Shown piece by piece: positions 4,774 through 59,245 of a stretch of 64,000 nt of DNA. The notes beneath the pieces were generated by a model. It saw only the letters and a list, made by a program, of their open reading frames with translations, did not search any database and was not told the origin of the DNA. Made by a program: the position numbers and the translations under genes. Source of the DNA: Antitrichia curtipendula (taxonomy: Eukaryota > Streptophyta > Bryopsida > Hypnales > Leucodontaceae); contig OX579637.1 in the NCBI GenBank assembly GCA_951230915.1, positions 12,834,001 through 12,898,000 on the forward strand, in the 5' to 3' direction. Within the stretch, counting starts at the first letter, position 1. Every line of letters begins with the position of its first letter.

Positions 4774-5316
4774 TAGCTATCTTTGAATTGACGATAGCTA
4801 TCCTCAAATTGAAGATACAGATATAGCCAGTCACTGGAAATATCACCCAAAAGAAATAAAAAAAGATTTTTATCTAATTATTACACAAGAAATTTAAGAA
4901 TTTATCCTTGACCCAAAGATAATTATCCCCCACTTGAGCATAAATGTGCTTGTTAGATGAACGTACTAAAACAAATTCATAAAACCAACCTTTGCATTGG
5001 TATCCTAGATTCAATGGGTTTTATCCTCGAGTTGAAGATACTTTCTTTGTAGGCTAAAATATCAAACCATGCATTAAATCAAAACTTAAAAAGCCCATAA
5101 AGAAATTGAACAATCCTCGGCTCAAAGATAATTATCTTCAACTTGAGGATAAATGTAATTCTTACACTAACAATAACACACTCAATCATAGAACTAAGAT
5201 CAATGATCCTCGAGTCAAAGATACGTTCTTTACAAACAAAATATCAAACCAAATATCAAAACAATACTACAAATATGTACTAAAAGAAATTAAGCTATCT
5301 TCAATTTTAAGATGAC
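4774..5316. repeat. Cluster of palindromes, TATCCTCAA/TTGAAGATA type
   Basis: At least eight short imperfect palindromes are visible, at 4774-4800, 4799-4817, 4901-4922, 4922-4944, 5021-5040, 5112-5130, 5131-5152, 5205-5223 and 5295-5316. The best is TTATCTTCAACTTGAGGATA inside 5131-5152. They lie immediately upstream of the first recognisable exon of copy E. Copies A and B carry their different palindromes in exactly this place (a 5' leader intron). No function is known. Confidence 0.75.
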
Positions 5317-5499
5317 TACCCTATTTGTTCAAGTAGCAACATGTTATAGATTAAATGCATACCATGCAAGCACAATAACATTCTTCTAGTATAGTGCGAA
5401 GTCAGCTAAATGACTAGATCTAAGTCAACCTCCTACACTTACAGCGCAATTGAACCATTTCTAAAGCCATTCCAAAACCATTCATCAAAAAACAATCAT

Positions 5500-6560
5500 C
5501 AATCTAGATCTCACAATAGGTAACGGCAAACTTTGGCAATTCAAAGATGTTGTCGAATTCTAGAATTATGGTGTCAATATTTGCAAGAATTACATCTTCT
5601 TGCGTCAACAAATGAAGGGGACTACACTATTCTATAACTAGGATATCAACAAGAAGGTAGCATCTATTAACATCCACTACAACAAATACGTTGTTGTTCA
5701 ACACTAGAAAGTCAACAACAATGGAAAATATCCTCCATACATTCACTCGATAGTAACGCAAATTGGAGGTCAATGTGGTCAATTCAACATGGAGATTTTC
5801 TTTGAATTTCTTGCATCTACACACTTGGAAGAAGCAATGTAGGTCTTTACAAACAAATTCTAGCCTTCATCTAGCCTTCATCAATGTCATTGCCCGTATA
5901 ATAGCTTCCATCTTCTCAACAATCGATTAATATGTCTTGGAGCTTAATGAGAAGGAGACAACTATTGTACTATGCACGGACCTCTCATCAAATAGAGTTG
6001 GGTACGATGCCCTTGGTCAGTGGGACAAGTTGTCAAGGGCAGGCGAGATCAACACAAAAAATGAAAAAGAGCAAGAAATTAAACTAGTCGGCCCCAATGC
6101 AAAGCAACAAAAAAAATGCATCAGGAAATCGATGCCTAGGGACAATGGGTAGCTCTGATTCCGCACTCACAAAAATCAATGTAGGCGAGAGAGCACCTGA
6201 ATTACCAGATTACAATAGGTTTGCATAAGAGCAAAAGACTTTTTGGTGACCTCCATGCTTTGTGCTATTTGTTTAAATAAAGAACTTTCAATGTGTCTAT
6301 CTACAAGTCCATCCAAACTCATGATCAAAAGTCGGAAGACAAAATTTTGAGAACTATAAAGAAGCATCTTATTTGACTAAGGGACAAGTTGCAAAGGCAG
6401 AAGGTGTGTTTGACCCCAATTGGCAAAGATTGTAAGCTTCTTTCACATCCTCCTAAGGATTTGAATGGAAAATTCATTATAATTAAGGGGTAGCTCAACA
6501 TCATTGTTTTGCAACAGCTATAGAACCGTGGGTGTGGGGCTCAAAAGAAGAAGTTCTCTT
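5500..6560 (+). pseudogene. Older copy E: N-terminal part of ParB/methyltransferase-like gene
   Basis: Very degenerate plus-strand remnant of the exon that is better preserved at 11900-13339 and 51740-53176. Recognisable matches, ignoring stops, are WQFKDVVEF-NYGVNICKNYI against YWEFQDPDRVQY-SLNMIPFKNII, GQFNMEIFFEF against VQFNVSHFIRS, and near 6400-6500 KFIIIKG-LNIIVLQQL against KFFIINGQHSVTASKLM (the ParB-like motif). It contains many stops. It follows its own palindrome cluster. The remainder of the gene reappears on the same strand at 24898, so copy A seems to have inserted in the middle. Homology was judged by eye and needs an alignment. Confidence 0.55.
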
Positions 6561-6671
6561 GAGGTCAAATTTTTTGTGTGGCCTCAATTTCATGCCAAAA
6601 AATGTGTCCTTTGAAGAATTTCCACTTCATTGATTGTCTTTTTCATTGTGGCATACCTTAACATTTTGATT

Positions 6672-6698
6672 GAAACACTATATTCATTAAAATGAGAG
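6672..6698 (+). repeat. Left terminal inverted repeat of copy A
   Basis: Reads AAACACTATATTCATTA then a TGAGAG block. The reverse complement of 24264-24290 carries the same 17-nt core and the same TGAGAG block, with three mismatches between them and one at the outermost base. Confidence 0.55.
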
Positions 6699-8533
6699 TT
6701 TTCTAACGAAATGAGTCTTTTTTCCACAACATGAGAATAGCAAGAGGCAATTGTATCATAAACAAAGAGAAATGACTTGTCTGTAACGATAAGAAAAGCA
6801 ATGCAATGTCATGCAAAATAGGTTTTCTATTGAAATATTATGAAATATCATGTAATAATTGCAATATGCAACACAATTGATGACAAATATTCACTGAATA
6901 ATGATGTATTGGACTAATACATTGCAAATTGGACATTTGAAGAAGCAGTGCCTACCGTTACACTCCTAGAAGCAAAGTATTTCATCTCCATAGTCTGTGT
7001 TACACACTGCAAATAAATTGCTTTGGAAGACGACGCCATGGTGACAGAACAATGAAGTGTATGCTAAGCTTGTGATCCAGATCTAAGCACAAAAATGATA
7101 GATACAACTATCCCACCATCTGATTGAGCACTCTTCCTAATGGCACTTGAGACATAGGTGTTTTCTAGTGCTCCCTACAGGAGAGCTTATAGTGGAACCT
7201 AGGTTAGTTTGTCTCCATAATTTCCTTGTCCACATTCATGTCAAAGCTTGACATCCACTTCCTTCTTCCATTACGATGGCTTCCTCTTCCAAAGCTTCTA
7301 TTTGCAAGACTAGCATAGATTATGAAGATTCAATACTTTGTCTACCCGGTTTGTAATATTTGAACGGGTTTACATTGTTCACAATCTAAATATGAGCCTT
7401 TGCAACATAATAGTTTAGAATATGAAATGTATTCTTGGCTCCCTGATATGCTAAAATGGTGTCTATAATCCAAAATTAGGAGGTCCTTAATACATCCCCT
7501 TCATAAACATTTTCAATTGATAGTGAATCTCTCTTTTTGTTTTTACATCTCTCTCCTCCGTTTTTAAAATTTTTTGCATCCCCGAAAGGTATACTAAAAA
7601 TGTATATTAAAAATGTATGTAGCTGCCGTGAGCGTGATTTACTCCAGTATTGAATTTTTCATAATAACTACACAATGCTATTTTGTACGTATAGTTTTGG
7701 AATCTACAATATGAATAGATACTACATGTGTGATTTACTCTTCAACATCTCCAAGGCCTTTCGAATTTCAGGTCCTCGACTGTAACCATTGTCACACTTC
7801 TTGTAATCTTGTAATGCTTATCTCCTCTGCAGTTGTATAAACTTCCAATCCCATACATCCACAACCGGCAGTTCACGTCGACTTGGGTGTAATCCGTTGT
7901 GCGTCTTTGTCTTTCGCACACCGAGAGATCTCAGACGTTGTGCTGGCAGGGGTAGTAGATGAGAACAGCCAGGAAGTATTTTATTGTGCACTTCTTTGAA
8001 CGCCACTGCCTCTATGACAGGCAAGGTCGCTTTCTCACCACCGTCGTCATAGAGCTTTCTCTGCGACACTCTGTCGGAGACAGATGGCAACATTCTTGAC
8101 CCCCCCGCCAGAGTGGGCCGTAGAGGAGAAGGGGAGCACGATTTGAGCAAATGTGGAGTTCCACTTGGCGGACTGTCCACCACATCGTCCTCCACAGGTT
8201 TTAGTGAGAAATCCATCATAGAATTTGCTGCTGCAACGGAACACAAGAAGTTCCCCATGCTCAAGATTGCGTTTTGGCCGTACTCCAGGAAGGAATCAGC
8301 CGATGCTGTGCAAGTTAGACTTCTATTTCAAATAGGAGATGGCGATCTGCATACGACCTGAAACGGAAAGCCAAATGCAAAAGTTATGTCAAAGGAAGCA
8401 CAGTTAGAAGAACATGTCTAGAGCTCTCCGCAAAGAGAAGAGCCATTATTTTGGAATGTATAGAGTTTGAATGGGTCCATCTGACCGATAGAAAGTTACA
8501 AGCATTTGAGTCAACCAAGGAACAATATAGAAG
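6699..8533. other. Left flank of copy A, mostly featureless
   Basis: AT-rich to about 7780 with nothing recognised. From about 7800 to 8360 base composition becomes more even and both strands stay open (minus 7818-8264, plus 8113-8361). Neither product resembles a family I know and neither is visible in copies B or C, so no gene is called. Confidence 0.3.
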
Positions 8534-8792
8534 AGGTTGACTCGACCTAGAATGTCTTAGAAAAGGTTGACCCGACCTACAATACGCATACAAGCCGTGA
8601 ACTGAATATAAAGGATCCACAAATGAGGTTGATCCGACCTAAACCTCACGAACCAAGAGTGTGAAGTAATAAATACGAATGAACTTATGATGAAGAAGCA
8701 TTTCCGTTTTATTCCCATGAACAATATATTACACAAAATTGCAGAGCACAAAATTCATAAACTATGCACAGTTCAGGTCGACACAAGCTAAA
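8534..8792. repeat. Palindromes downstream of the HAD-like exon, copy A
   Basis: Four AGGTYGA-N-TCGACCT-type palindromes at 8534-8550, 8564-8580, 8626-8642 and 8774-8792. The first two are 30 bp apart. They lie 3' of the stop codon of the HAD-like exon at 9032, in a 3' UTR or later intron. Confidence 0.7.
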
Positions 8793-9031
8793 TTGTGTTG
8801 CCAATGATGAAGCCCGACCCCTAGCGTGGATCTAGTATAGCTAATCTAGACTAATAAAAAAGAAAACTCGTTGGCCTATCTAAGACTCAACGACAATCGA
8901 GCTGCTTCCATTAGCCGGTTCTACTCTCGACAACTTCGTTTGTCGCAGAGCATCTGCCGTCCCATCTTCCCTAAGCTATTCTCCCTAAACAACTTCAATC
9001 CTTCATCTTGAGCAGCGTGAAGGCGCCTAAA

Positions 9032-9673
9032 CTAGGGAAGGAGGATGTCCAAGAGAAATGTGTCCTTTGGACCATTTCCCCTGTTCGACCAAGTGTCAGG
9101 GAGAATGACATTCTCCGTCTTGTTCATAATGTGCTTAGAAGGGCTGTCGTCCACTATGATTGTATTCTCTAACATGAAATTCCCTTGTGAGCCATTGAAC
9201 AAAGTACTCAGGTTTTTAAGGAACAGGTCCTTGTTTGTATTGGGCTCCTTGAAAGTCGTGATCTTTCCAGAACCATCTCTGCACTTCAATGTTGTGCAAG
9301 ACTCTTGCCTGAGTACAAGATAGGGCATTTCTATACCATCGAAAAGATGTTTACAAACACATTCAGTGTTGAACATTTTCATGGAGCTCCACACTGAGAT
9401 GACGGCAATCTTTGCTAACTCACTCAAGAACTGCGAGCAATTGGGCCTGACGTAAACTTTTTTCTTTCCCACAACAATGGGAACTGTGGCAGAGGGTCTA
9501 TGTGAGGATTTGCCTACGTGACTGTACCATCTTTTGGTTTTGATTTCTTTAGACACACATAAAATCCCATTCAGGTCCAGGACAACGTTGAGCCACCTCA
9601 CGGCCACCCTGGACCTCAATGGACGTTTGACCTCCTCCAACGTCCTTCCACAAGGACAAGGAGAATTCGATTT
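9032..9673 (-). CDS. FCP1/HAD-phosphatase-like C-terminal exon, copy A
   Basis: A 213-codon exon with no internal stop, entered through an AG acceptor at 9674-9675. It resembles the FCP1/NIF-type HAD phosphatases. Motif I is VVLDLNG at residues 31-36 (D33, N35). The motif II region is IAVISVWSS and motif III is IIVDDS with D175-D176, followed by the usual Asn/Leu-Pro segment. Canonical FCP1 motif I is DLDxT, so here the second Asp (the general acid) is Asn. Some plant relatives share DLNG, and catalysis is doubtful. The exon is the last of the long minus-strand gene and is co-oriented with it in copies A, B and C/D. The role in the element is unknown. Confidence 0.7.
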   Translation of the reverse strand, partial: KSNSPCPCGRTLEEVKRPLRSRVAVRWLNVVLDLNGILCVSKEIKTKRWYSHVGKSSHRPSATVPIVVGKKKVYVRPNCSQFLSELAKIAVISVWSSMKMFNTECVCKHLFDGIEMPYLVLRQESCTTLKCRDGSGKITTFKEPNTNKDLFLKNLSTLFNGSQGNFMLENTIIVDDSPSKHIMNKTENVILPDTWSNRGNGPKDTFLLDILLP

Positions 9674-9831
9674 CTGTTTTCAAACGGGTAAATGTGCAGC
9701 CAGTTAGTACCCTGAACTGACACATTTTCGAACTAGCGCGAAATGATATAGTAAATACTAAAGACATGGCAACAAAGACAGTGCATGTATGAAATATCTT
9801 CTTCTCACGATCGGATTTAGTTGCAGCTCTA

Positions 9832-10016
9832 ACGTCTTTCTGCACCTCGACGACGGGTTCTGCAACTTTGACCACCATGGCATTGGCGTCCGAAAATGAT
9901 AAGTCATCATCCACGACGTCTTCTTGTACAATAGAAGCAATCTCACGCTCTAAAATCACAGTATCTGCTTGCGTTGTAGGCACAAATTCTTCCACGGGAA
10001 CGTCATCAGAAGACAC
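9832..10016 (-). pseudogene. Acidic linker exon, copy A
   Basis: Acidic, Val-rich exon (SSDDVPVEEFVPTTQADTV) matching in position the copy B exon at about 30324-30489. In copy B the 3' end reads CAG followed by GTACTT, a normal donor. In copy A the matching place reads AAG followed by ATATTT, so the donor GT appears mutated to AT, a G-to-A transition. The exon links the Pro-rich and HAD-like parts of the protein. Confidence 0.45.
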
Positions 10017-10270
10017 AGGGAGTTGATTGTGCGACGACTAATGTTTAGGCGCAGAAGGAACAACATCAACATTAACAATGCCTACAATTCATGAATTCAC
10101 AAAAAAATAATCAGTAAGAATCTGATATATTAAAATTCCCAGTGGTAAGCACTAGAATACATAATTTTGAAAATTTAGAACTCTGTGGTTCTGTCCACCG
10201 TAAGTTCACATTCAGAAAAATGTTTTCGCTTCATGAATATGCACAACTAAGTCCAATCTACCATTCATGT

Positions 10271-10311
10271 TAGCTCAAGTCGACCTAAACTATACAAACA
10301 ACATCGAGTGA
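10271..10311. repeat. Intron palindrome orthologous between A and B
   Basis: The palindrome at 10271-10289 sits in an intron whose donor follows the codons for GAPTG at 10312. The copy B intron (donor at about 30747) starts with nearly the same DNA (ATCACTCGATG then TTTGTATAGTTT) and has its own palindrome at 30692-30710. Here the arms are AGGTC/GAGCT; in B they are AGCTC/GAGCT. Confidence 0.65.
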
Positions 10312-11689
10312 TCAACCTGTAGGGGCATCTATACACGGCGTCTTGACCATGCCACCTTCTAGCACATCGACATTAGTCGCCACCTGCGGAGCGCTAGCGA
10401 TTGCAACGTCAGTCTCTGGAGGTGGCCGGGGAGTGTTCGGCACTTGGTATGTAGGTGGAAGAGGCAGAGACGCGACCATAGAAGGAGAAGCTGTTGGCAA
10501 GCCAACAATCGGATGATAGACTGCGCGAGCTGACGGAGGAGGAGGCATGACAGAATCGAGAGCAAGAAGAACATTCAATGCAGACCAAATCAGCTCTGCC
10601 AAACTCGACTCCCCGGTATTCAACAATCCCGAGGCTTGACCCTACAACAACAACTGAGGAGCAACTTGGGCTGGCAAAACTGCCGCGAGTGGCAGAGCAC
10701 TTCTATTGCTATTCACAATGGCGTCGTAGGTGTTGTCAATCTTGGACAAAAGTGTCAATATACAATTCGACAGTTGCTCCATCGTGTGACTATGTTGGGC
10801 GTGCATCTTCATGTTTGTTTCCCGATCATGTAGCCTCTCCATTCTGAGCTTGTCGATCTCTGCACTCATGGCAGTCAGCTCGTCATAGTGTCTCCTCCTC
10901 TTTCTCGTTACCCTCCAAGTCGTGGAGCACTGCGGCATGCTGGACAGCTGCATTTCAATAGGATGTAATTCCTTTGGTTGTCCAGACGACGCAGAGGACC
11001 CCCTAATACTGTGAGAGAGCTGCACGGGAGTCAGCTGCTCGTCCTGTACATCTTCGAGGCCATAGTCACCTCCCTGAAATAGTCCTCTCCTGGTTGCTCG
11101 AGGAGGACATTCATTGTCGCGCTGGTGATGCAACGACTCCTCTTGAACTCTCTCCGTTTATCCACATTCACTTCGTTGAATGCGTTGATGAGGCCCAAGT
11201 TTGGGTCGAGATGGTTGAGCTCCTTCTTCACCAGATACTTTCTCTTGCGTCGCTCGACCCACTCCTTATGGGTGTAGCAACTCTCAAGCACTGAAGCCAC
11301 TTGCTTGATTGTCACCTTCGGATGCTTCAGTGTTTGCCTCTCCTCGTCGCTTGTTCGTGTTTGCTTTGGGATGTGCGTTGCGAGCTTCTTCATGTCGTCG
11401 TAGGAGAGGTTTTCCATCCACTTGAAGAATTCGTGGGTCAAGTTTCCGGACTCTGACTTCCACTTGGTCTTCTTGTTAAATGGTTGGACGGTCTCTGGGT
11501 TGATGAGCTCACCGTGAGCATTACTCGATATCACCTCGCTCCACAAGTTGAAGACATCATCAAGGGCAGTAATGATCTTCAACTCATTTGTAATCTTCAG
11601 CTTCTCCTCGGCATCCTTACCCCGTGAGGCTTTCTGAGACTTTACAACGTCAAGCATTGCGAAGTGAGCGTTCATTGCCTTCACGAACT
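10312..11689 (-). pseudogene. Middle exons of ParB/HAD-like gene, copy A, with internal deletion
   Basis: Begins at 11689 after a CAG acceptor. It encodes a conserved segment (ELKIITALDDVF then CYTHKEWVERRKRKYLVKKE) shared with copy B at 51605 and copy C at about 25430. Near 11040-11090 the frame changes from NVLLEQPGEDYF to a segment (QLSHSIRGSSASSGQ, then a Lys/Arg-Glu coiled coil RKRRRHYDEL...) that in copy B lies about 300 codons further on. The methyltransferase-like segment present in B is therefore missing here. The 3' part (10312-10626) is Pro-rich, as in copy B at 30744-31148. Confidence 0.65.
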
Positions 11690-11899
11690 CCTGCAAAATC
11701 CTTGCGTAGGGGAGCAGACATGAGCATACGATTAGGTCGACCCGACCTAACTAAAGAATTCATGGACTTGGCATTACCACATTGCACAATCCTGTTTAGG
11801 TCGACTTGACCTTAATAGAACTAGCTGGTGCAACTGGACTCATAATAGACTTCAGGTAATCCACATGAAATCTTGAGTATTCACTTGATAAGTTTATAC
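11690..11899 (-). repeat. Intron with two palindromes, copy A
   Basis: A 210-bp GT-AG intron (donor AAG/GTATAAAC, acceptor TTTTGCAG). It holds two palindromes: 11732-11750, TTAGGTCGACCCGACCTAA, and 11795-11815. The homologous introns of copy B (51606-51739) and copy C (from 25154) also hold two each. Confidence 0.8.
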
Positions 11900-13339
11900 C
11901 TTGAATTTAACTAGGTTGGCCTTGTCCTCGGCTTTACGCCGTGTATTCGACATCGTACCCGCCGGAGAGGGATCCTTCGGGTTCCGTGGCCTTCCCATTT
12001 TCTCCCAAACACTTCGTGCACCAAGGATGTTAGTTGACCACAATGGCTTCATGGCGACAAAATGGTTAACCTTGTTGTAGTACGCGGATATGGACCTCAA
12101 TTTCTCGTTGTCATTCGACCAGACAACGTAGCAATCCCACTCCCTAAAGTACTTGAGTATGGACTCGTCCAATCTCATTTGGACCATCATCTTGCTGGCC
12201 GTCACACTATGCTGGCCGTTAATCAGGTAGAATTGCCCTCCTTTGATTTCGTCCCACAACTCAGGTTTGGGTTTCTTAGGTTGGTTCACGGGCATGATGC
12301 ACAAAGTCTACTTGGTGGACTTGTCGGGCATATGCACATAGAAATGCATGATGTCCAAAGCGAGCCGATCCTCATGGCTTTAGATGTTCATATCCGCTGG
12401 CGATGAGATAAGTTGCTCAATCGGGATTGACTTTTTCTTGTCGATTGCAAACACGTAGGCGTCAGTGCAAGTGGCCCAGTAGTTCTTGTAGGCCTCTGCA
12501 GACAATTTGTAATCATGGTCACGTTGAGGGTCGTGAGCCTCTGGAATGTTAGTAACCGCCGACGTAAAACTAGTCTCTCTCAGCACTGCTTCATCAGGCT
12601 TTTGAGCCTTTGATTTCCTCCCAGAATTTGAAGCAAGGTTTTGTCTTGCCGGTGGCGGAGGTGATGTCCTAGACTGCTCGTTTCCCCTGGCACCACAACT
12701 GTTCTGTGTACCTGGAGTCCCCATGGAAGCTTGTCCTTCCCCTCCTTAAGCCGGCATCTCCTGAGACACAGTTCGTGCGACTATGTCTCTTTTCGTGGAT
12801 TCTAGCTTCGCCTTTAGAACCTCGAAGGTGACGAATAGGGACCTTAGTCGATTGCACAGCGTTTTTTCGATAATTGTGTTTCCAGCTGAATTGCGGAAGA
12901 AGTTGTTGTCAATCTTCTTCTCCAACTCAAGGATTTCGGTCCTGTACTCGGTGGGTTCAAGTGTCTCCAGGAACGGCATGATGTTGAAAGGAATTTTCGA
13001 GGAGTCCAAGACGATAGTGAAATGACACTATTCTTCTTCCTTCTTTCATGTTTGTGCAGTCACGCAGTGTATTTTGATGATGCTCCCCTTGTCGTGGGCA
13101 ATCTCTTTGATTTTCTCGTTGAAGGAGACAGAGTAGTACGGGTCGTTGTCCTTGTACTTGTACGAGAAGCATATCAGGTTTTTGAATGGTATCATCCCAA
13201 GGCTCCAGTTGTCCATCTTCTTGGGGTTGAGAAACTCCCAGTACTCTCCATCGTTGTGGATGTCGTCTCCATCATCCTCATCTCGAGCGACGTTGCATCT
13301 CTTGAAGAACAACTCCAGTCTTGGTATTTGTTCCTTCAT
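11900..13339 (-). pseudogene. N-terminal exon with ParB-like domain, copy A
   Basis: A 480-codon exon, phase 0, whose ATG (13337-13339) directly follows an AG acceptor. Residues 1-110 are an uncharacterised conserved region (IPRLELFFKRC, YWEFLNPKK, MIPFKNLICF). At about residues 300-370 lies a ParB-like region: IPIEQL...PADMNI-SHEDRLA, then TLCIMPV, then YLINGQHSVTASK, the equivalent of the GQHR box of ParB-N domains. CYVVWSNDNEKLRSISAYYN follows. Compared with copy B it has no frameshift but about five premature stops (two near 13012-13030, then 12746, 12380 and about 12310). ParB-like assignment is by motif order only. Confidence 0.65.
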
Positions 13340-13378
13340 CCTGTCAATGCAGGTGAACGTATCACTAAGTTCGTGGTT

Positions 13379-14055
13379 TAGCTCGAGTCGACCTAAGTCG
13401 GAGACCAAGTGTACTTCTTGATCTTACTGAATGAGTGAGGATATCGGTCTTGTATTTAGGTCGATTCGACCTGAAGATCACATATCGCATTTGGTATGAT
13501 CTGGTTTGAATTTGGATTTAGTTCGAACCAACCGTAATGGTATCGGACTATATGCTTAGAAATTTTATCTCTGATCTTGCACGGGAGATTCACTTCTGTA
13601 ATCTTTATTGGTAGTTTGGTGTCACGATTTAGGTCGAGTTGACCTAATTCAAGAGGTCCCTCTGCTGTGTATACGTGATCATTCTGTGTCTCTCTGCTGT
13701 GTATGTGGTCATTTAGCTCGAGTCAAGCTAACTAGAGGGTGATCTGGTATTTGTATTTTGAAAGTTTTAATCTTTTTTTGTGTCTTCTGCCTAGTTGTGG
13801 GTTACGGTTTAGGTCAATTTGACCTAACTTTGACGGGGCCTTCGATTTCTGGTCGCAGACTTATTTTGCTTATGGGTACAGTTCAATGTTCTTCAAATTG
13901 GATTTTCTCATTTAGCCCGAGTCGACCTAAGTGGTTCTTTTATGTTTGAATTCTTTGTATAGTGAACCTAAATCTTTTGTTGTCGAAAATAAAACCTACA
14001 TTCGCAATAGTCGACCTAAACTGGCTTCAACCTAAACTCATCCCGACCTAAAATT
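13379..14055. repeat. Palindrome cluster in 5' leader of the ParB/HAD-like gene, copy A
   Basis: Palindromes at 13379-13396, 13455-13475, 13628-13647, 13713-13731, 13808-13827 and 13911-13930, plus half-sites at 14011-14055. Compensated variants occur: 13808-13827 has GGTCAA/TTTGACC and 13713-13731 has TTAGCT...AGCTAA. They lie just upstream of the first coding exon, presumably in a 5' UTR intron. Copy B has the equivalent cluster at 53211-53960. Confidence 0.8.
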
Positions 14056-15119
14056 GCAAATGAATCAAATTCATACTCACCTTGATTGTCCTGGCAAGAC
14101 TCCGGATTTGTATGTAATTGAAGGTTCCTCAAGCCTTACGGTTTGGGAGCAAAAAGAAATCAATAGTTCCCTTCATCACCCACAAGCAATGGAGGTAATT
14201 AGTGAAACTAATTACAACGTTCAGCTGAATCCAAAACTCTCAGACCACCAAGCACGGAGGAAAAAGCAACTGGAGTGCTCAACATCAATATCAACAACGT
14301 CAATTTCGGCAAATTGGACTAAAACGTAGTCAGTGGAAATTTCCAATCTGAAAGTATGAATCCTTAGAATACTCCATTCGCAGACATACTCTCCAAAACC
14401 GAGCAAGAAACCTATGGCACATTTTGACACTTGTACAAACTACAAATTCTGACTCCTGAATAGCAACCTCAACCAGAACATCTTGTATGCACAACTGAAA
14501 AAAATGGAACTTCTCTTGACCAATCAAAGAAGTGTCCATGCCCTCCCTCAGCATATCATGACAATTGAGGAAAAATTGCTGCAACTCAAAGACAACAAGA
14601 AACCTAAACTACAACATTCAATGAAACAACCCCAAAATCGCTAGAAAATGAAATTCACTCTTCCTGCACCATGCAAGTAGTTCACGCATCTCCTAGTTCA
14701 TGGATTACAGAACAGTTTCCAACCCAAGTGCGCAATCAAGAGTTTCCACCCAACACACAGATAAAACTCACCGATTAAGGTCAGCGTTAAAGCTCAACAC
14801 TAAATTGTAAGTACCCGGGCACACACAACGCAGAGATAAAACTCACCAATTCAGCTCATTGTTAAAGGTCAAAATGAAATTGTGAGCACCCGGGCACACA
14901 AGCACACGGGCCATTTAGTTTTTGAAACGGGCCATTCAGTTTCATATTGAGCACGGAAGACTTTATGTACAGACCCCCAAAAACAAAATAAAAAACGGAT
15001 TACCTGCTTCCCGCAAATAAGCACGCAGCAACCTCCCGCCGCAAAACTCACGCTCCAACTCCGTCGTCTGAGGAAGCACATCATCACACCAACTCCGTCG
15101 AAAGCAAAGGGTGTAGGAA
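14056..15119. other. Divergent spacer of copy A, left part, with a direct repeat
   Basis: No gene recognised. Two direct repeats of about 62 bp occur at 14762-14823 and 14834-14895, each with GATAAAACTCACC...ACCCGGGCACACA. This may be promoter DNA for the minus-strand gene. Confidence 0.4.
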
Positions 15120-15835
15120 GCACGACAACGACGAGCATGGGGGCGAAGAAGCCCGAGGAAGTCTGGGGACGCAGACAGCACGGGGGTGCAGAAGAAAACC
15201 CCAACGACGAGTACGGGGGTGAAGAAGCCCGAGGAAGTCCGGGAGCACGGGGGCAAAGAAGTCCGAGGAAGTTCGGGGACACCGACGGGGACGCAGACAG
15301 CACGAGGCGCATAAAAAAACACCGACGACGAGCACATAGTTGAAGAAGTCGACGCGCAACGGACTGGAGTGCTGCAACAGAGGGTTGGTGTGCTTCGAAC
15401 AGAATTTGCGCAATGCTGTGCCTTAATCAAGTACTCACCCTCACCCCACACAATACACCCATCACCCCTAACCAAAACCTAAACGTCCAAAAGCTTTGTT
15501 CAATCCTGTGCCCTAATGCTCACATCACCATCACCCCACACAATACCATCACGCCTCACTCTTCTATGCTTGGGGGACTAGAACAGATAAAATCTGCACC
15601 GGGGTTCTTTCGTGCAACGAGGATTTAGGGTGGGTGAATCTGCACCGGGGGTTCTTTCGCGCGATGGGGGACTCAAGCAGGTGAATCCGCATTGGGGGAT
15701 CGTTTGCGCAACGGGAGACTGGAGCAGGTGAAATTCGCACCGGTAGGTTTTTCGTGCAACGGGGGACTAAAATCCGCACCGGAGGTTTAGGGTTTGCAAA
15801 GGTGAAATCCGCGCCGGGGTGAACTGACCCCCTTC
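15120..15835. repeat. GC-rich minisatellites in the spacer
   Basis: At 15120-15330 an imperfect GC-rich unit containing GAAGAAGCCCGAGGAAGTC repeats three to four times. At 15590-15835 a unit of about 47 bp (AATCCGCACCGGGGGTTCTT then GCGCAACGGGGGACT) repeats about five times. Open frames across this block are repeat artefacts. Confidence 0.7.
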
Positions 15836-17189
15836 TCGTCCCCCCGGGAAAATCCAAAATTTTTTTATTTTCCACAAATTAACATTTCTGCAAATTCTGA
15901 ATTCATATTTGCAATAAGACGTCCCAAATTAGCTATTGTAGCTATAGAAAACAGATTTTACACAGCACAGAATAGGGGGCTTTTTAATATATGCATCCTT
16001 GGATGAACTTTAGAAGGACAAACAAGTAGGCCATTTCACCCGGCCTTTTAACTCTAACTATGTTTTAGGATTGAAGCATTCAAATCACACCTTCTTGGTG
16101 TTCTTTAATTTTAAAGTTTTTGTTTTTGTTTTTAGGATCCTCAATTGTCTTTTAGTTATTTATTACTTCTATTTTTGTTGATTACAAAACATCTCATGTG
16201 CACTTCGGTTGTGACAAAGCTGAATTAATCTAGGTTCAAATTATATAAAAATTCTTCAAAAAGATTCACCTTCCTAGCAAACTCTTTCAAAAAAATGAAC
16301 ATATTTGAAACAAAATGTCTTCAACCTAAACACAACAAAAAACCAAACAACAGGTGGGTCAAACACCTACCCTGCCCTAGACTAGGGAAGATTGACCCCT
16401 GTATTGCCCTGTGTTTTATCCCTACAGGAAACAATGAAGTTTTTTATTTGCCGCATATGATAAAAATTTCATATTCATATATGCAATCAAAGGCCCCATA
16501 TTTGCTAACGTACATGAAGAATACAAAATTTATGCGGCACAAAATAAGGGGCAATTTTTACATTTACCCTTTGACAAGACAATGCAGTTATTTTCAAAAA
16601 CATGAACCACTCAAAACAAGAACTTCATTAGATTTTATTAAACATACTAGTACTGTCAACACAAGAAAAAGGTTACATGTTTCACTAATGCTCTGAATTT
16701 CAACATTCATCCACATATTCTATAGAAATAGTACATTAGTTATCGCATGTTATGTTTTTATACTCTAATTTTCATGGATAATTAGGGAATTCTACGATCC
16801 ATGATGAAAACTCAAAAGTATGTACCTTAATTATTTTGAAGTCCTATGCTTTTGTTCAAAAAATCGTCATCAAAAAAGTTCACTAAGGACTTAATGAAAA
16901 TGCAAAGTAGCAAAAATAAACTGAAGTTGGAAAATGTCTTCAACAAACAGGATTCAGAGATGACTCATGTTTGTGCTAGTTTTTTGTTAAATGTCAATGC
17001 AATTTAAAAAAATATTTCAAAGTAGTTACAAATTCCGCATTTAGATTTAACTCTTTCACAATTAAATATGATGACTTCTCATGATAATGGCCACTATTTA
17101 TTGTAAATGCCCAATAACGACAATAAGTGTATACCAAATATTATATATTAGACGCAAGGACAGACTAAAATTAGGTTTGAATTGCATAT
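15836..17189. other. AT-rich spacer, no feature seen
   Basis: Homopolymer-rich DNA with no motif or family match. Confidence 0.4.
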
Positions 17190-17655
17190 TATTGTGAATT
17201 CAAATGTTTCAAGGAATATTGAACATCCAACTTTTTGTAAAGGGCTTCCCAAATCAAATTCCATGACATTTGATGTAGGGAGCCATTAAAGTACAAGCCC
17301 AATTTTATTCCAATTTTTTTTTTATTCACGTGAGGGTTCATTGAAATTACGCACAAATTAAATATTCTCATAGATTCAAATACTGGAGGGTATTTTCAAC
17401 TTCCTCAATTTGGTTCAAGTGCCTCCCCAAATCAAATTCCATGACATTTGATGTAGGGAGCCATTAAAGTACATGCCCAATTTTATTCCAAATTTTTTTT
17501 GATTCACGTGAGGGTGCATTGAAATTACGCACAAATTAAATATTTTCATGGATTCAAATACTTGAGGGTATTTGCAACTTCTACAATTTGGTTCAAGTGC
17601 CTCCCCAAATCAAATTCCATGACATTTGATGTAGGGAGCCATTAAACTACATACC
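17190..17655. repeat. 178-bp tandem repeat, copy A
   Basis: The motif CCCAAATCAAATTCCATGAC starts at 17248, 17426 and 17604, giving an exact 178-bp period over about 2.3 copies. A diverged array with the same period lies at the matching place in copy B (56290-56935). Confidence 0.9.
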
Positions 17656-17939
17656 CGGTTTTACGTCAAATTAATCATGTATTAGCCTCCTCAGAGATCC
17701 AATCATAATCACTCTAGAATAGTATCATTATTACTCGAGATAAGTGATTAAGAAGTTCAACTTCTTTCCAAAAGTACTATGCAACTTCTTTCCATATTTT
17801 TTTGACATGTATTATATTCAAGTAGTTTTAAAAGTGACAAAGAATTGCAAAAATTATTTATCTTGAAGGGCGAAGTATATCAATAATTTTATATACCGAA
17901 AACTTCAAGAAAGTTGTATACCGTGACATTTAGGATTTT

Positions 17940-18620
17940 AGTTTTGTATTTTTGTGATGATTGATTGATTGTGGAGTATTGTTCTTGGAGTTTGTGAATT
18001 ATTTAGTATGAGGGTTCTATTATTTGTATGATTGACTGTTGAATTGAATTTTGTAGACAGTGCAAAGAAGTAGTATTCATTTAATTGGAACAAAATGGCT
18101 GTAGACCCTAAACGAGGCATGTATTTCCATCACGTGTGTTAGTATATTTTTCTTCCAAGTACTTGGCCTTATTTGGACAAGTGTAGAGACTAGTACTTAG
18201 ATTTTGAGGTGAAACAGTACGTTAGAGGGGTCCAATAATTTTTGGACTCATTTCTTGAGTGTAAAAAAATAGCATTGAAATGAAATGGCCATGGACTCTA
18301 CAGTAGTAGGTGATCACTTAGAAGTATTTCCAACTTACATGCATTTTTTTTGCACACCTTTTTAATTTTTCTAATAAGTGGTTGATTGTGTTCATTGTTC
18401 TTGGATTTTGTGAATTACTACGAGGTGTTTTGCACACCTTGTGTAATTTTTGAATTGACTTTTAAAGTGCAAACAAGTAGCATTGGAACGAAATGGCCAT
18501 GGACTCTAAACGAGGGATGTATTTCCGACTTGTGTGTATATTTTCCCCACTGGATCATAGAATGTGCTACTTTAATGTATGTGAGGAAGTTGTTGCTCCT
18601 TGCTTGAAATCTGAAATTTC
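17940..18620. repeat. Degenerate duplication, about 407 bp
   Basis: The segment with GATTGTGGAGTATTGTTCTTGG...GTGCAAAGAAGTAG at 17955-18130 recurs at about 18370-18540, a 407-bp offset at the GTGCAAA mark. A partial copy (AAATGGCCATGGACTCTA) lies near 18275-18302. No coding content. Confidence 0.65.
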
Positions 18621-27418: not shown

Positions 27419-27421
27419 ATC

Positions 27422-27605: not shown

Positions 27606-27608
27606 ATC

Positions 27609-50640: not shown

Positions 50641-50739
50641 AAAATTTCATCCATTTTTAATTTTTTTAATTTACATACAATTATATTTTAGTTCTAATAT
50701 TATGGCTCCCCGCACATTAATTCCCGCTTCCCGCTCGTT

Positions 50740-50774
50740 GCTTGCTGCTCTACGCTTGCATACCAGCATTCCCT
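50740..50774 (-). repeat. Right terminus of the 18.3-kb element
   Basis: The complement of 50748-50767 matches 32449-32468 at 15/20 positions. Confidence 0.7.
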
Positions 50775-50786
50775 CCTCACGTCCCA
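50775..50786. repeat. Right target-site duplication
   Basis: CCTCACGTCCCA, identical to 32432-32443. It is followed immediately by the copy B coding sequence (minus strand). Confidence 0.85.
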
Positions 50787-51605
50787 TACACCGAATGCCA
50801 TGTTCTTCACATGGTCGGCAGTCATCGCCCCCTTTGGCCAATTCTGGTGCTCTTCTGATTTTATGTCATACGGTCGGTAGTGAGCGACAGACATCGGCGG
50901 CACGAAGTCATTCCTACGCTCAAGAAACACCTTGAAGAATTGGGCTGCGAACGGTGACATTTCCTCCACGGATTTGTTCTTGGCTCTCGGCTGCTTGGCT
51001 TTGGCCCAGTAATTGTCTCCAAGTTGCTCGAGTAGAACACTCATCGTGGCACTCGTGAAGTTTCGAGTCTTGAACTACCTCCACTTCTCCACATTCAATT
51101 CGTCCATGAAGTGCATGAGTCCCAAGGTTGAGTCCACAAAGTGCAGTTCCCTCTTCACAAGATATTTGCGCTTCCGATGTTCGACCCACTCCTTGCATTT
51201 GTAGCAGCTTTCAAGCACACCCGTGATCAGTTTTATTGTCACCTTCGGATACTTCTTGTTCTTCCTTCCTGGCTCTTGATGCAGGATGTGCTTGGCAAGC
51301 TTCGTCAAGTCATACAATGAGAGATTGCCAAGCCATTTGAAGAACTTGTGGGTCAAGTTCCCATTCTCTCGCTTCCATGTTGTTCTCAAATTGAACTTCA
51401 TGCGGGTGTTTGGGTCCATGAGCTCCCCATGCATTGCGCTCAAAATCACTTTGCTCCAGAGGCTGAAGACTTCATCAAGAGCGGTGATAATCTTGAGCTC
51501 GTTCACAATCTTCAGTTTTTCTTCCGTGTCTTTGCCTTTTGCGGCCTTTTGCGCCTTCACAACATCAAGCATGGCAAAGCGCTTGTACACTGCCAAGGAG
51601 AATTC
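50787..51605 (-). pseudogene. Exon 3 of the ParB/methyltransferase-like gene, copy B, 5' part
   Basis: Starts at 51605 after a TGTGCAG acceptor, phase 0: EFSLAVYKRFAMLDVVKAQK, ELKIITALDEVFSLW, then EWVEHRKRKYLVKRELHFVD, NFTSATMSVLLEQLGD, MSPFAAQFFKVFLERRNDFV and GAMTADHVKNMAFGVWDV. The last residues abut the insertion and the reading resumes at 32431. One stop (51075-51077, TAG) interrupts it. No frameshift. The segment after NVLLEQ is what copy A has lost. Confidence 0.7.
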
Positions 51606-51739
51606 CTGCACAAGCGAGAAGCATCACAGAGCTGTTAGTATGCATGATTCAGGTCGAGTCGACCATAATTGTACTCTTTTATAATGATACAGGTAGAATA
51701 TGGTGTGCAGTTCAGGTCGAGCCGATCTGATGCACATAC
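51606..51739 (-). repeat. Intron with two palindromes, copy B
   Basis: A 134-bp GT-AG intron (donor AAG/GTATGTGC). Palindromes at 51650-51664 and 51711-51731 are of the CAGGTCGA...TCGACC/GATCTGA type. It is orthologous to the intron at 11690-11899, which also has two. Confidence 0.8.
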
Positions 51740-53176
51740 CTTGAACATTGTTTTGTTTAGTTTGTTGTCCATGTTCCGCCTAGCATTGGACTTCTTTCCA
51801 ATCGATGCAGCTTCTTTGAGATTTCTGGGTCTCCCCATGATTTCCCATACTTTCCTCGCTCCGAGGATGTTAGTGGACCACGACGGCTTCATGGCAACAA
51901 AGTGATTCACTCGGTTGTAGTACGCGGAGATGGCACGGAGCTTTCCACCATCTGATGACCAAACCACGTAGCACTTCCACTGGCGGAAGTGCTTCACAAT
52001 CTCTTTGTCTAGTCCCTTTGTCACCATCAGCTTGCTTGCAGTTACACTGTGCTGACCATTTATAATGAAGAACTTCTTGTTCTTCAGGAGTGGCCACTGT
52101 TCGGGTGTGGATTTCTCAATCTGATCCACGGGCATTACACATAGTGTTTGTTTTGTGGACTTATCAAGCATCTCCTACAGAAATGTCATGACGTCTTTGG
52201 CCAATCTTTGCTCATGGCTACGAATGTTAAGGTGTGCCGGTGCCTCACTCAGTTGGTCGATGGGTATTGTTTTCTTTTCCTCCCGGTCGAAGACGTATGC
52301 GTCTGTGCAGTTTTCCCAATACGCCTTGTAGGCAGCCGTGGAGGCGTCGTAATCATATTTCCGCTTAGAATCATACGCCACCGGAACATCAATTACAGCG
52401 GAGAAGAAGCTTTGTTCCCTAGCTGCAGATGCGCTTGCGTCCTTGTCAAATGGGACAATCTCTAAAAACAATGCTAGGTTGCTTTTCTTTCGACTTGACA
52501 GAGTTGCACCCGCTTGCTTGCTTGTTCTTTTCCCTCAACTCTGCTGCGTTCCTGGAGTTCCCATTGAACCCTGCCCTTCTATTGCGCTCAGACTTTTGGT
52601 GGAGACCGAACTTGTAGTCATGTCCTTCTGCTTTGCTTGAAGTTTCGCCTTCAGTACAACAAAGTCGACAAAAAGAATCCTCAGCTTAGCGCACAAGCTC
52701 TTCTCAATAACAGTCCTTCCACTTGGCATTTTGAAGAATCCTAAGTCTACTTTCTTCTCCAGTTCTGGTATCTCTGTTCTGTAGTCAGTTGGTTCTAGGG
52801 ACCTGATGAAGTGAGAGACATTGAACTGTACTTTCGAGGAGTCTAGAACCAGCGTGAAGTGATATTGGTCTTCCTCGAGTAATCCTATCTGTGCAGTCTT
52901 GCAGTGGATTTTGATTATTGTCCCTAGGTCATGGATAACTTCCTTGATTTCTTTGTCGTAGGAGATCGGGAAGTATGGTTCGGTTTCTTTATACTTCACG
53001 GCAAAGCATATGATGTTCTTAAACGGTATCATGTTTAGACTCTAGTACTGAACTCTGTCTGGATCCTGAAACTCCCAGTACACTCCTTCCCTATCTAAGT
53101 CATCTCCGTCCTCTTCAACATTGATATTCTTGCACCTCTTGTAGAAGGCCTCAAGCTTCGGTATCTGGACTTCCAT
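51740..53176 (-). pseudogene. N-terminal exon with ParB-like domain, copy B
   Basis: A 479-codon exon; the ATG (53174-53176) follows a TATGCAG acceptor, as in copy A. It reads MEVQIPKLEAFYKRC, MIPFKNIICFAVKYKE, then the ParB-like region: IPIDQLSEAPAHLNIRSHEQ, KQTLCVMPVDQ and FFIINGQHSVTASKLM. This matches the usual ParB-N order (IPIDxL...N.R...V.P...GQHR..A). QWKCYVVWSSDGGKLRAISA follows. Three stops (53042-53044 TAG in place of the copy A Trp, 52535-52537 TGA, and TAG at about 52175) and no frameshift. The function of a ParB-like domain here is unknown; DNA binding or nuclease/NTPase-like activity are family possibilities. Confidence 0.7.
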
Positions 53177-53210: not shown

Positions 53211-53960
53211 TCAGATTGAGTCGATCTGATTAGCTTTTGAGTATGATTTTGTTACTGTCTTGCATGTCTTCTGCGTTGATTCGTTGTGTATTTCGTGACA
53301 AATGAATTATCATGTTTTTATAATGTGACCTTACTACCACGGATGTAAGTTTTAGCTCGACTCCATCTATTCTAGACTTATTCATACTGTTCTATTTGAT
53401 TTTAGTAGGCCAACAGTTGGTACTCCCGCGCGTGTCTGGTGTGGCTGTCTATGCTTACAGTGGTCTATGGCTTTGTTTCCTCTGACACTATGCCCTTTGT
53501 TTTTGATGCGATGTTTTAGATCGGGTCGACTTGAACTATCCTCTCTGGTTCTTTTGCTTTAACTTGTGTTTGTTCTGGTATATTGTGTCTTTCAGGTCAT
53601 GTCGACCTGAAGGTTGTCCAGTTGATCTAGGTATCTGCAATCTTTTTCTGAAACACCGTCACTCGGGTGCAACTTCAGGTCGGCTCGATTTGAATGGTTG
53701 TAGCTGCCTGGCTTTCTTGCTTTGTTGTTTACTCTTCTGTTTTCTATTTCAAGTCAATTCGACCTGAAGTAGGAGGTGCTGTAGGCTTCCGTCTTTGAAA
53801 CTGCTGGTTGTGGTTTATTTGTTTTGTTGTGTTTAGGATTATGACATCTTACGTCTGTTTAGGTCGGGTCGACCTGAATGAATATCTTAATTATTGCTAT
53901 TATTTTGTGCATTTTATTTCAGACGTCGACCTGAATTGTTGTCGACCTGAACTGTAATTG
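53211..53960. repeat. Palindrome cluster in 5' leader, copy B
   Basis: Palindromes at 53211-53230, 53353-53371, 53516-53535, 53591-53611, 53674-53694, 53748-53768 and 53858-53878, with half-sites at 53920-53965. Most have outer arms TTCAGGTC...GACCTGAA instead of the TTTAGGTC...GACCTAAA seen in copy A. The outer T-A pair is replaced by C-G in both arms. Confidence 0.8.
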
Positions 53961-53965
53961 ATCTG

Positions 53966-55069
53966 AACTGTATATAATTTTAATTTCTACTAATCCCTGA
54001 GTTGGATTTCTACAACTTCAGCGAAATAAATCCCTTCACCCTTTATCTGAAGTACTCCTAAACCCTAGGTCCTAAGCCCTAAGCAAACACCAGAATGTCT
54101 TCTCTAAGTAAACAAGATATCATACCTGCATAGAGGAAGCTGAAAGTTTTGGAGATTCTTGTAAACCTTCCAAAGTCCTTAATGTGTTGTCCTAAAACCT
54201 GCACATTCAAAGCAATACTGGATTTGAGTTACCATTTTTCATTTCTATTGCACAGAGAAAGAACAACTCACCTGTGTGCAAGTTTTAATGAAATAGGAAA
54301 AAAAATCTTCTAAATCCTAAACCCTTAATAAAAAACACTGAAGAAAATCATGAATCCACGGACTACCACCTTAATCAAATTCCAAGAGGCAAGTTTTAAG
54401 TAAACTAAAAATACAATCTTTTCAAGGCAAACATAAAGCAAAAACCTGTGATGACAACACAAACCTATTTTGCATTCAACCAACTCTCTACTTTGCAATG
54501 ACAACAATCTAAACACAAAAGTTGAATGAAATCCAAGCAAGTGCGCTCCAGGAGGTCTGCAACTTCAAAGAAAATCCGAAACACAATTTAAAAAGGTAAA
54601 CCCTAAGCTGAAACCCATGAACAAAAAATCATGAAACCACGACCCAAAAGCTGAATGAATGCAAGCAGGGATGCAAGTGCATGAAATCCTGAAACACTTG
54701 TAAGAAAACGGAAACCTTCACTCCAATCCACACCCAACTCCGAAATGTAGAAACTAGCGCGCACAGTCAAGGAATGGTTGCAATACCTGACTTAATCTGC
54801 TTCAATTCCAAATTTGACGGAGCGTACTGTAAACCCAAATCGCAAATCCCATGCAACGTACACGTACCCTCTTCCGTCCAACGCGCAGCGATGCCGACAA
54901 CCTCCCGAAACCTCAAATCGTTGATGCAAGGCGTGAGGAAGCCGCAAATCGAGTAAATAAGGAAGAGTAGGAAACATAGAATTCCGAAGCAAGGCGTGAG
55001 GAAACTGGAGCAAGAGGTGCACACTAGGCAAGAAGAAAGGAAATAAAAAAGAAGCAGGGGCTTTCGTTA
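53966..55069. other. Divergent spacer of copy B, left part
   Basis: No gene recognised. Some AACCCTAA-like strings (54058-54085) resemble plant telobox motifs but are too few to call. Confidence 0.35.
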
Positions 55070-56289: not shown

Positions 56290-56935
56290 CGAATTGTAAT
56301 TCTAATTCTGAAATTTCTGGAATCATGCACATTTTGGGGCACCTTATGAACAAAAAGAAAAAAAAACAATTGAATCAACCATATCCTGTACTTTAGGGCT
56401 TCTAAATCCAATTTCATGGAGTTTTGATGTGAAACCATGGAAGAAAGAGTTGTGTAAGCTGCAAATGGGGTAAAGAGTTTGACTTCATGAAATATTTGAG
56501 GTCATGCATATTTTGGGGTAACTTATGAACAAAAGAAAAGAAAAAATTGAACCAACCATATCCTGTACTTTAGGGCTCCCAAGTCCAAGTTCATGAAATT
56601 TTGACGTGAAACTATGGAAGAAAGAATTGTATAAGTTGCAAATGAGGTTAAGAGTTTGACTTCATGAAATATTTGGGGTCATGCACAGTTTGGGGTAACT
56701 TATGAACAAACAAACAAAAAATAATTGAATCAACCATATCCTGTATTTTAGGGCTTCTAAATCCAATTTCATGGAATTTTGACGTGAAACCATGAAAGAA
56801 AGAATTGTGTAAATTGCAAATGAGGTTAAGAGTTTGACTTCATTAAATATTTAGGGTCATGCACATTTTGGGGTAACTTATGAACAAAAGAAAAGAAAAA
56901 ATTGAACCAACCATATCCTGTACTTTAGGGTATGT
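56290..56935. repeat. 178-bp tandem repeat, copy B
   Basis: The landmark TCATGCA falls at 56323, 56502, 56679 and 56857 (179, 177 and 178 bp apart), about 3.6 copies. Part of the unit (AATCCAATTTCATGGAGTTT then GATGTGAAACCAT) resembles the copy A unit (AATCAAATTCCATGACATTT then GATGTAGGGAGCCAT), so the arrays appear homologous. Confidence 0.9.
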
Positions 56936-58537
56936 TTATGCCATTCCCAAAGTAACATGAACATGATCAATTTAATTTTTATGAAACGATTCTCTTCGCC
57001 TTATTCTCAGCTTCTACAATTTGTTTATTTCATACTTTCATGTGTGAGTTTCATGGGTTTACACATGTGGGGCCTAAAGTATCTGGGTTTTTTTTTCTAA
57101 TTTGTTCATAACATTCCTAATATGAGCATGATCAATTAAAAATCTAGTGAAGTAAGAGTCTTTGCCCTATTCGCAATTTCTACAATTTTTTTTTCTTTCA
57201 CATGATTGTGAATTTCATGGATTTACACTTGACTGTGGGCATTGAAGTACATAATCCTAATTTTTTTATATGTGCGAAGCTTTTCCAAAGCAACATGACA
57301 ATGATTAAACATAATTTAATGAATTCTAAGTCTTTTCTTTATTTGCAACTTCTAGAATTATTTTCTCTTAAACTTCCACTTATGATTTTTATGAGTTCTT
57401 AGGACTTGAGAGTCTAGAAGTGCGTTGCTAGAGTAATATTTTCACCTAAAGCATTTCCAAATATGAGCATGATTCAAAAAATTTCATAAAAGTGAAGTCT
57501 TTGCTCAATTTGTAACTTCTGCAATTTCATTTTTACAATTAATGCAAAGGGATTTACTACATGAAAATTTTGTAAATACTTGTAGGATTTAACAATTGAA
57601 AGAAATTCATTAAGGATGTACAAAAAAGTCCAAACCCTAAATCCTAAACCCATAACCCTAGAATTTGCGAAAAATTAATGTATGAAAAGTTTAAAACTCT
57701 AGAGTTTCAGGGTAGTGACGAGCGAGGAGGTCTGTTCACCTTGGACTTCTCAAAGGCAATTCCCACATTTGATGCTGCTAGAATAAGTCTAATTAAGAAT
57801 TAAATAATTAGCCCCCCTCCCTTTACGCCAAGTTGTGTTTGTTTGACTTTATTTCATAGAGAACAAATCTACAAAAGCATGCAGCTAACTAAATTCAGCG
57901 GATTACAATAATGCCAGCAGCTGTTTGTGTGTTGTTAACCGCGAATAGTAGTATACACATCTAAGTCCAAGTACATGCCCGCGACTTTATGGATGACGTG
58001 TGTGATTTTAAAAATTATGTACTCTGCTTCTTGCCCTCCCACCTCCGTCAAGAAGTTATCGGATTTAGCCCACGTCCGGATTCGGGTATTCTCTTTCACA
58101 TTCGCTAGACTCTACACCTCCGATCACAAGCTATCTTTGTTCGTGGGCACTTGTTTCAGCGTTGTTACTGAGAATCATTCATGTATTGTGCGTGTAGGGT
58201 GTTTGGTTACTTAGACGTTCAGTGCGATCTAAGGCGCTTGGGTTCTAAGTACGTCTACAATGACTTAGTAGTTTCTTTGTAGGATTTCCATTCCACCAGT
58301 TATTGTCCAGACGACAAGGATGTAGACTTCTGATCATGCGCATGATATGTTCATTGTAGTAGGTCGACGCTCTTATGTTGTGCGCAGATGGTTGGTTGTG
58401 AACGCATTAGATTGATTAATAGTTTTGCTATGCACAAAAGGAGTATGTGTGAATGTGGTCCCGATTTTATTGCCGTAAAATACGGAATGGAAAATGAGTG
58501 TTTCTTAATGCATTACCTCCGTAAAGCCCGGACACAT
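56936..58537. other. Spacer upstream of DUF7869-like gene, copy B
   Basis: AT-rich with telobox-like strings at 57630-57665. The plus strand is open at 57975-58214, product not recognised. No gene called. Confidence 0.3.
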
Positions 58538-59245
58538 ATAGGTCAAGGCGACTTGAATGGTATACAGAATAATGTATTCTATCAGTTCTTGATCTATTAA
58601 TTGGCACTGCACTCTTCACGTCGATCCGATCTAAACAGAAATGATATCCCCATTCAAAGTAACAAGATAACCTCATCGTTTTAGGTCGGTTCGATCTAAA
58701 ACGGAGAACACTAGTTGATTGGAAGATTTTTTTTAATTATCTCAAAAGTGGTCCATACTGACTTTCGTCTATAACCGTATATTATATTGTCTAAAATCAT
58801 TATTAGGTCAACTCGACCTAAATACTTTAATCTGGAAAAATGCCTGTCACATGTATTGAAACATACTTGAAGCACATAAAGTTGTGTTGTCATCTAAATT
58901 GGGATTGTAAATACTTTTGCTTTGAATGAATCCAGTGTAATAGATAAATTTGATTTAGGTCAAGTCAGCCTGATAGTAAAACTATTGAGATCTACAGATA
59001 GGAACTTTGTCGAGGAATTCTTGAACTTGTCTCGTTATCGAGAGTGTCATAGTCTAGTAATTTACTTCATTCCTGGATAATGACGTTCAGGTCGAGTTGA
59101 CCTAAGTACCAACGGTGAATATGGATAGACTAAATGCTAATACAGTCCTTCACTATATTACGTATGCATTGTACTTGTCACCGTTTTGGTATTTTCCTTC
59201 TTCAAGGTAGTTGCATATTGTGAACGTTAAGGTCGAGTCGACCTT
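58538..59245. repeat. Palindromes in 5' leader of DUF7869-like gene, copy B
   Basis: Palindromes at 58538-58557, 58617-58635, 58680-58700, 58802-58823, 58954-58973, 59086-59106 and 59227-59245. The last, TAAGGTCGAGTCGACCTTA, is perfect and has both outer arms changed relative to TTAGGTC...GACCTAA. Confidence 0.8.

Follow-up and report, generated by a model that had tools for sequence, protein, structure and literature searches.

Palindromes of element-specific spelling in the non-coding parts of a two-gene moss transposon are candidate binding sites for an element-encoded protein

Why should the introns and leaders of a transposon harbour short palindromes by the dozen, spelled differently from one copy to the next? 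The question is raised by a stretch of 64,000 nucleotides from the moss Antitrichia curtipendula (contig OX579637.1 of assembly GCA_951230915.1, positions 12,834,001 to 12,898,000 of the forward strand; hereafter the window), which carries several copies of one type of two-gene DNA transposon with divergent genes: A, B and an older copy, E. Gene 1 encodes a protein with ParB/sulfiredoxin-like and FCP1-like parts, and gene 2 a DUF7869 protein. Here, we find the palindromes to be in excess, absent from aligned coding sequence and from spacers, specific in spelling to the element, constrained in sequence rather than in pairing and present on a second contig, and we find a ParB-like fold in a structure model of gene 1. 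We lean, with slightly better than even confidence, towards an answer in which a dimeric protein of the element, most likely the gene 1 product, would bind them as double-stranded DNA and mark its own units in the manner of the VANC proteins of Arabidopsis.

Two types of palindrome were distinguished: type 1, TYAGGTCGA-N-TCGACCTRA, and type 2, TATCYTYRA-N-TYRARGATA, the latter lying around copy E. Consensus searches allowing at most three mismatches returned 21 matches to TTAGGTCGANTCGACCTAA and five to TTATCCTCAANTTGAGGATAA, with none in 100 shuffles for each. A symmetric matrix for type 1 identified 36 sites against 0.5 expected from block shuffles (18 in copy A, 16 in the region 50.7-62.9 kb and two at 30.7 and 31.8 kb), and that for type 2 identified 16 against 1 expected, 14 of them in the flanks of copy E and two as weak matches elsewhere. 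The first-pass annotation of this DNA had counted more than forty palindromes; the 36 type-1 and 14 copy E sites, 50 together and many of them degenerate, bear this out, as the matrix sites do its cluster coordinates. Its description of the copy E palindrome as unrelated does not hold, given that both types follow a 9-1-9 layout and have TYRA as their core (TCGA or its C-to-T/G-to-A variants). The sites, to which no strand is assigned, are distributed as follows:

13378..14051: seven type-1 sites in the gene-1 leader of copy A (matrix)
11732..11814: two type-1 sites in a gene 1 intron of copy A (consensus, matrix, tblastn)
10270..10288: one type-1 site of copy A, within the inferred intron preceding the FCP1-like exon (consensus, matrix)
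8532..8791: four type-1 sites of copy A, degenerate (3-4 of 9 arm pairs broken) and lying 3' of its gene 1 (matrix)
19885..20569: four type-1 sites in the gene-2 leader of copy A (consensus, matrix)
30691..30709: palindrome TCAGCTCGAGTCGAGCTAA, between exons of the carboxy-terminal half of gene 1 (consensus, matrix, tblastn)
31811..31829: one type-1 site, degenerate (5 of 9 arm pairs broken), in an open-frame tail between aligned exons of the carboxy-terminal half of gene 1 (matrix)
51649..51730: two type-1 sites in a gene 1 intron of copy B (matrix; A/B donor comparison)
53211..53971: seven type-1 sites, followed by tandem half-sites with a 16-bp period, in the gene-1 leader of copy B (matrix)
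58538..59246: seven type-1 sites in the gene-2 leader of copy B (matrix)
4778..5314: nine type-2 sites of copy E, in part a tandem duplication (matrix)
25174..27998: five further type-2 sites in the gene-1 region of copy E, the first two between aligned exon pieces (matrix)

Three of the type-2 pairs, at 4778-5151, are spaced by exactly 21 bp, which is two helical turns.

By protein alignment with hand-placed exon limits, and leaving aside the two sites at 30.7 and 31.8 kb, none of the 18 sites of copy A (39% coding) and none of the 16 of copy B (43% coding) falls in coding sequence. Nor does any lie in the spacers of 5.8 kb (A) and 4.2 kb (B); the sites occupy leaders, introns and, in A, the region 3' of gene 1. 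The earlier placement in introns, leaders, untranslated regions or spacers, and never in coding exons, thus stands except for the spacers. At least five sites (11732, 13378, 31811, 51649 and 51712) are within stop-to-stop open frames that continue past an exon, and the site at 51712-51730 is touched by two protein alignments that stop at 51713. A donor common to both copies there, CAAG/GTAT, led us to place the end of the copy B exon at 51737, which leaves this site in the intron. In copy A, the gene-1 leader cluster lies between a strong donor (AAG/GTGAGT at 14080) and a possible acceptor immediately ahead of the ATG, and is therefore probably an intron of the 5' untranslated region. Candidate donors for gene 1 of copy B are located further upstream, and the gene 2 leaders of A and B hold no donor above the cut-off.

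Spelling follows the element. The second arm letter is T in 29 and C in two arms of copy A, compared to 12 and 17 in copy B (Fisher p = 1.5e-5, treating the two arms of a site as independent), so that the element-specific flavours of the first-pass annotation are retained while its grouping of A with B is not. This bears directly on the possibility that a host transcription factor, recruited for expression of the element, binds the sites. Clusters in leaders just upstream of both start codons would suit such a factor, which would likewise leave a constraint on sequence and not on pairing. Nevertheless, a single factor does not favour spellings that differ among elements of one genome, as between A and B and more so in E, and sites are also found in internal introns and 3' of genes; we regard this explanation as unlikely, if worth keeping in mind. 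Excluding the sites, A and B align at 46% identity in their leaders and at 52% in the intron, where shuffled leaders give 40-47%, and the motif therefore persists where its surroundings are nearly lost. Six of 13 A sites align opposite a B site, or two of 13 when sites are masked before aligning; our idea that A and B sites never fall opposite each other was thus too strong.

What is conserved appears to be the sequence and not its capacity to pair. Intronic RNA hairpins that affect splicing or small-RNA production would be in keeping with the many sites in probable introns, and three consensus sequences do fold into hairpins (-12 to -14.6 kcal/mol, z -4.7 to -4.9). However, arm mismatches at 49 sites, read on the assumed transcript strand, include no more G.U than A.C (35 vs 42; type 1 alone, 26 vs 26), same-letter changes in both arms are without excess (8 seen vs 6.5 expected, p = 0.30, 34 sites), and arm symmetry is near chance past the next base outward. 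Because wobble bias and compensation are both lacking, hairpins are disfavoured, and we hold them to be quite improbable: they can form in RNA, yet the sequences carry no trace of selection for pairing. The same pattern, with symmetry fading outside the arms, is the trace expected of a sequence-reading protein.

Since the matrices were trained on the very sites of the window that they score, an independent case was sought. A search for DUF7869 in bacterial and archaeal genomes gave 77 pattern matches, one of which was confirmed: L002 (CADCWO010000071.1), a contig of 4327 bases titled cyanobacterium in a public assembly. It encodes an intact DUF7869 protein of 944 residues (54% identical to P0001 in the best segment, 75% to P0023). 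Its leader contains the palindromes TTAGCTCGAGTCAAGCTAA, TTAGCTCGACTCGAGCTAA and TTAGGTCGAGTCGAGCTAA, three weaker copies lie 3' of the gene, and its open reading frame has no matrix site scoring at least 15. Most of its arms have C at arm position 5, a spelling that reads as a further flavour. We infer that L002 is plant DNA inside a bacterial bin; as it encodes an intact transposon gene of plant type, the cyanobacterial bin probably contains moss DNA. Scanning viral contigs with the palindrome pattern returned one contig, L003, without a DUF7869 or gene-1 match. The same scan with gene 1 gave no match, and with gene 2 it gave a sole locus, L001, which was taken as a chance match (601 of its 20417 bases were inspected).

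The copies that carry these sites consist of the following features:

6674..24288, no strand: copy A with both ends; terminal inverted repeats AACACTATATTCATTA, 25 of 30 terminal bases matching between ends
8891..13339, minus strand: copy A gene 1, decayed (tblastn with P0088, P0090, P0091; Pfam NIF 3e-16)
20661..23490, plus strand: copy A gene 2, DUF7869 protein (Pfam DUF7869 7.1e-39; tblastn 70% to P0001; four in-frame stops)
50703..53176, minus strand: copy B gene 1, amino-terminal half (tblastn with P0088/P0091)
29727..32386, minus strand: carboxy-terminal half of gene 1, probably that of copy B (tblastn P0091)
59338..62215, plus strand: copy B gene 2, DUF7869, disrupted by a stop and by frame changes
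62862..62881, no strand: right terminal repeat of copy B, directly adjoining a further DUF7869 gene remnant
24862..25585, plus strand: copy E, divergent gene 1 remnant (ParB-like part), right of copy A (tblastn)

Copy A is flanked on either side by TTGA, a probable 4-bp target duplication, and its right end is common to copy B, where it reads AACGCTATATTC; the best ends overall are AACACTATATTC with the 4-bp TTGA. The left end of copy B was sought and not found. A separate subterminal palindrome is shared by the right ends of A (24239-24290) and B (62830-62881), reading TTTTGAGAGG...CCTCTCAAAA in B and less complete in A. Gene 1 of copy B is probably split by approximately 18 kb of other DNA (~32.5-50.7 kb), since the piece at 29.7-32.4 kb continues it by residue number: P0091 residues 455-731 align at 51602-50775, and residues 747-886, 902-1087 and 1288-1426 at 32386-29727, without overlap. 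No convincing duplication was found at the ends of this insertion. Copy E flanks copy A, with type-2 palindromes on the left and the ParB-like remnant and more type-2 sites on the right, where a weak FCP1-like piece is also found (28784-28882, E 0.027). The copy E region also holds a perfect 36-bp inverted repeat with a 4-base loop (27476-27551). The spacers of both A and B contain tandem repeats of near-equal period (178 bp at 17248-17663; 177 bp at 56309-56930), and a 224-bp unit forms an array of 7.7 tandem copies at 40131-41851. A hAT-related DUF659 fragment lies at 619-1146 (Pfam 1.1e-26). An Rfam scan gave no match at gathering scores.

Gene 2 is 72% identical between A and B, and its product is possibly a DDE-type transposase. 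Named matches to DUF7869 include proteins of Physcomitrium patens and Ceratodon purpureus; in Pfam, the gene 2 piece and P0001 match DUF7869 only, Foldseek of a gene-2 model returned nothing at E 0.001 or better, and no paper in the open-access literature searched mentions the domain. If the palindromes served this transposase as binding sites for transposition, as subterminal repeats do in CACTA elements, this would agree with the presence of the motif next to gene 2 on L002; against this, the leftmost 1.7 kb and the rightmost 0.8 kb of copy A hold none of its 18 sites, and none of the 16 copy B sites is in its right-end region, which makes the proposal a shade less probable again than hairpins. 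Tiny parasitic palindromes or products of tandem duplication without a role are very improbable: part of the copy E cluster did arise through tandem duplication (85 nt at 71%, spacing 209) and inheritance in place may account for some A and B sites, but the palindromes are absent from the spacers, coherently spelled within each element and kept where flanks are near random identity. Of the three options named in the first-pass annotation, binding sites for an element protein are accordingly the one that the sequence data favour, whereas mismatches speak against hairpins, and spacers and spelling against parasites.

Which protein would read the sites? In copy A, gene 1 comprises a ParB/sulfiredoxin-like part (13339-11897), a middle part (11713-10330) and an FCP1/NIF-like part (9679-8891), with exon limits placed by hand from alignments and sequence. 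Its matches in P. patens are proteins 1491-1551 residues long whose names refer to an FCP1 homology domain. The usual FCP1 motif is DxD; copy A, the 29.7-32.4 kb piece and P. patens all have DLNG, so the second aspartate is replaced. In a structure model of gene 1, one part has a predicted ParB/sulfiredoxin fold, closest to ParB, Noc, PadC and KorB. Profile searches of solved structures gave no informative match.

Several observations weigh against gene 1 as the reader of the sites, or against binding sites altogether. The model is poor overall (mean predicted local distance difference test score 53.5), Foldseek gave no match at E ≤0.001 (best 6sdk_B, E 0.015), and sequence profile searches found no relation to ParB. 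No DNA-reading domain or helix-turn-helix was identified in gene 1, the model being of low confidence after residue 443. The nucleotide-binding motif of ParB is GERRxRA, in the probable place of which gene 1 reads NGQHSVxAS, a placement judged by eye and kept in all three aligned rows. Beyond the window the motif is tied to gene 2 only, as L002 has no gene 1. Half-sites outside palindromes are not enriched (25 vs 16-28 in shuffles; type 2, 66 vs 57-82), and lone half-sites, being without excess, were dropped as support for a half-site reading. Some A and B sites may simply have been inherited in place. Stops are present in the window copies, and none seen here is in working order.

Under the binding-site reading, each 9-base arm would be one half-site, in which the inner core is fixed (TCGA, often decayed to TCAA or TTGA) and the variable outer letters would set element specificity. 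We infer that gene 1 binds, dimerises and has an anti-silencing or activating effect: protein at leader and intron sites would label the transcription units of its own element so that they stay open to expression, as VANC does on VANDAL, and RNA polymerase II at the sites may be a target of the FCP1-like part. A bolder version, which we consider decidedly unlikely, is a eukaryotic transposon with its own ParB-like system, whose protein would load at parS-like palindromes, spread over the transcription unit and deliver the FCP1-like domain to RNA polymerase II or chromatin, thereby escaping silencing; each lineage would re-spell the outer half, so that related elements do not share protection. 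If binding by an element protein is correct, this would be a second transposon family that tags itself with sequence-specific sites, using different proteins, and it would test whether anti-silencing has arisen more than once. With the core fixed and the outer letters free to change, the co-evolution of protein and site would be directly readable, and mosses are tractable hosts for testing self-marking.

To place the moss element, it is useful to compare it with known systems. CACTA (En/Spm) elements encode TNPA and TNPD, have CACTA ends and a 3-bp target duplication, and concentrate their motifs at the ends. The moss element resembles them as a two-gene plant DNA transposon with repeated short motifs. 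In contrast, its motifs are not subterminal (0/34 in the three end regions examined, the left end of copy B not having been found), its ends differ, with a 4-bp TTGA, and its gene 2 matches DUF7869 only. A second comparison is with bacterial ParB-parS and KorB-OB of plasmid RK2, whose parS and OB sites are palindromes. The predicted fold of gene 1 and palindromic sites on the same element recall these systems, whereas gene 1 lacks GERRxRA and an identified helix-turn-helix, is eukaryotic and has an FCP1-like domain attached. KorB is reported to bind CTP, to form a sliding clamp and to repress promoters from near and distant OB sites (PMC11790492). In the open-access literature, we found no paper that brings together Physcomitrium, palindromes, introns, transposable elements and terminal inverted repeats, none linking Physcomitrium, ParB, transposon and phosphatase, and none covering at least four of five topics that include moss and FCP1.

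A precedent is VANDAL, a group of Mutator-like elements with a Mutator-type transposase. The first-pass annotation knew of no described plant element with such a system, and thereby overlooked the VANC proteins of Arabidopsis VANDAL, which are reported to bind short motifs particular to each family within introns and other non-coding sequence (PMC5735166). VANC proteins remove DNA methylation from the elements that encode them. These motifs, YAGTATTAY for VANC21 and AGTTGTCC/AGTTGTAC for VANC6, are described in two papers as also lying upstream, being absent from two coding probes, differing between related families and spreading by tandem repeats (PMC5735166, PMC10398659). The moss elements likewise have short element-specific motifs in non-coding parts, and part of the copy E cluster spread by tandem duplication, as is reported for VANC targets (PMC5735166). 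Yet the moss sites are palindromic, where the stem 'palindrom' is absent from the main texts of both papers (PMC5735166, PMC10398659); the candidate binder has a predicted ParB/Srx-like fold and an FCP1-like part instead of DUF1985/DUF287, neither of which appeared in Pfam scans of window pieces (E ≤0.1) or of five gene-1 homologues (E ≤5); and the other gene is DUF7869, without a Mutator-type transposase match. Overall, the moss element is best read as a VANC-like self-marking system that would have been built from different parts.

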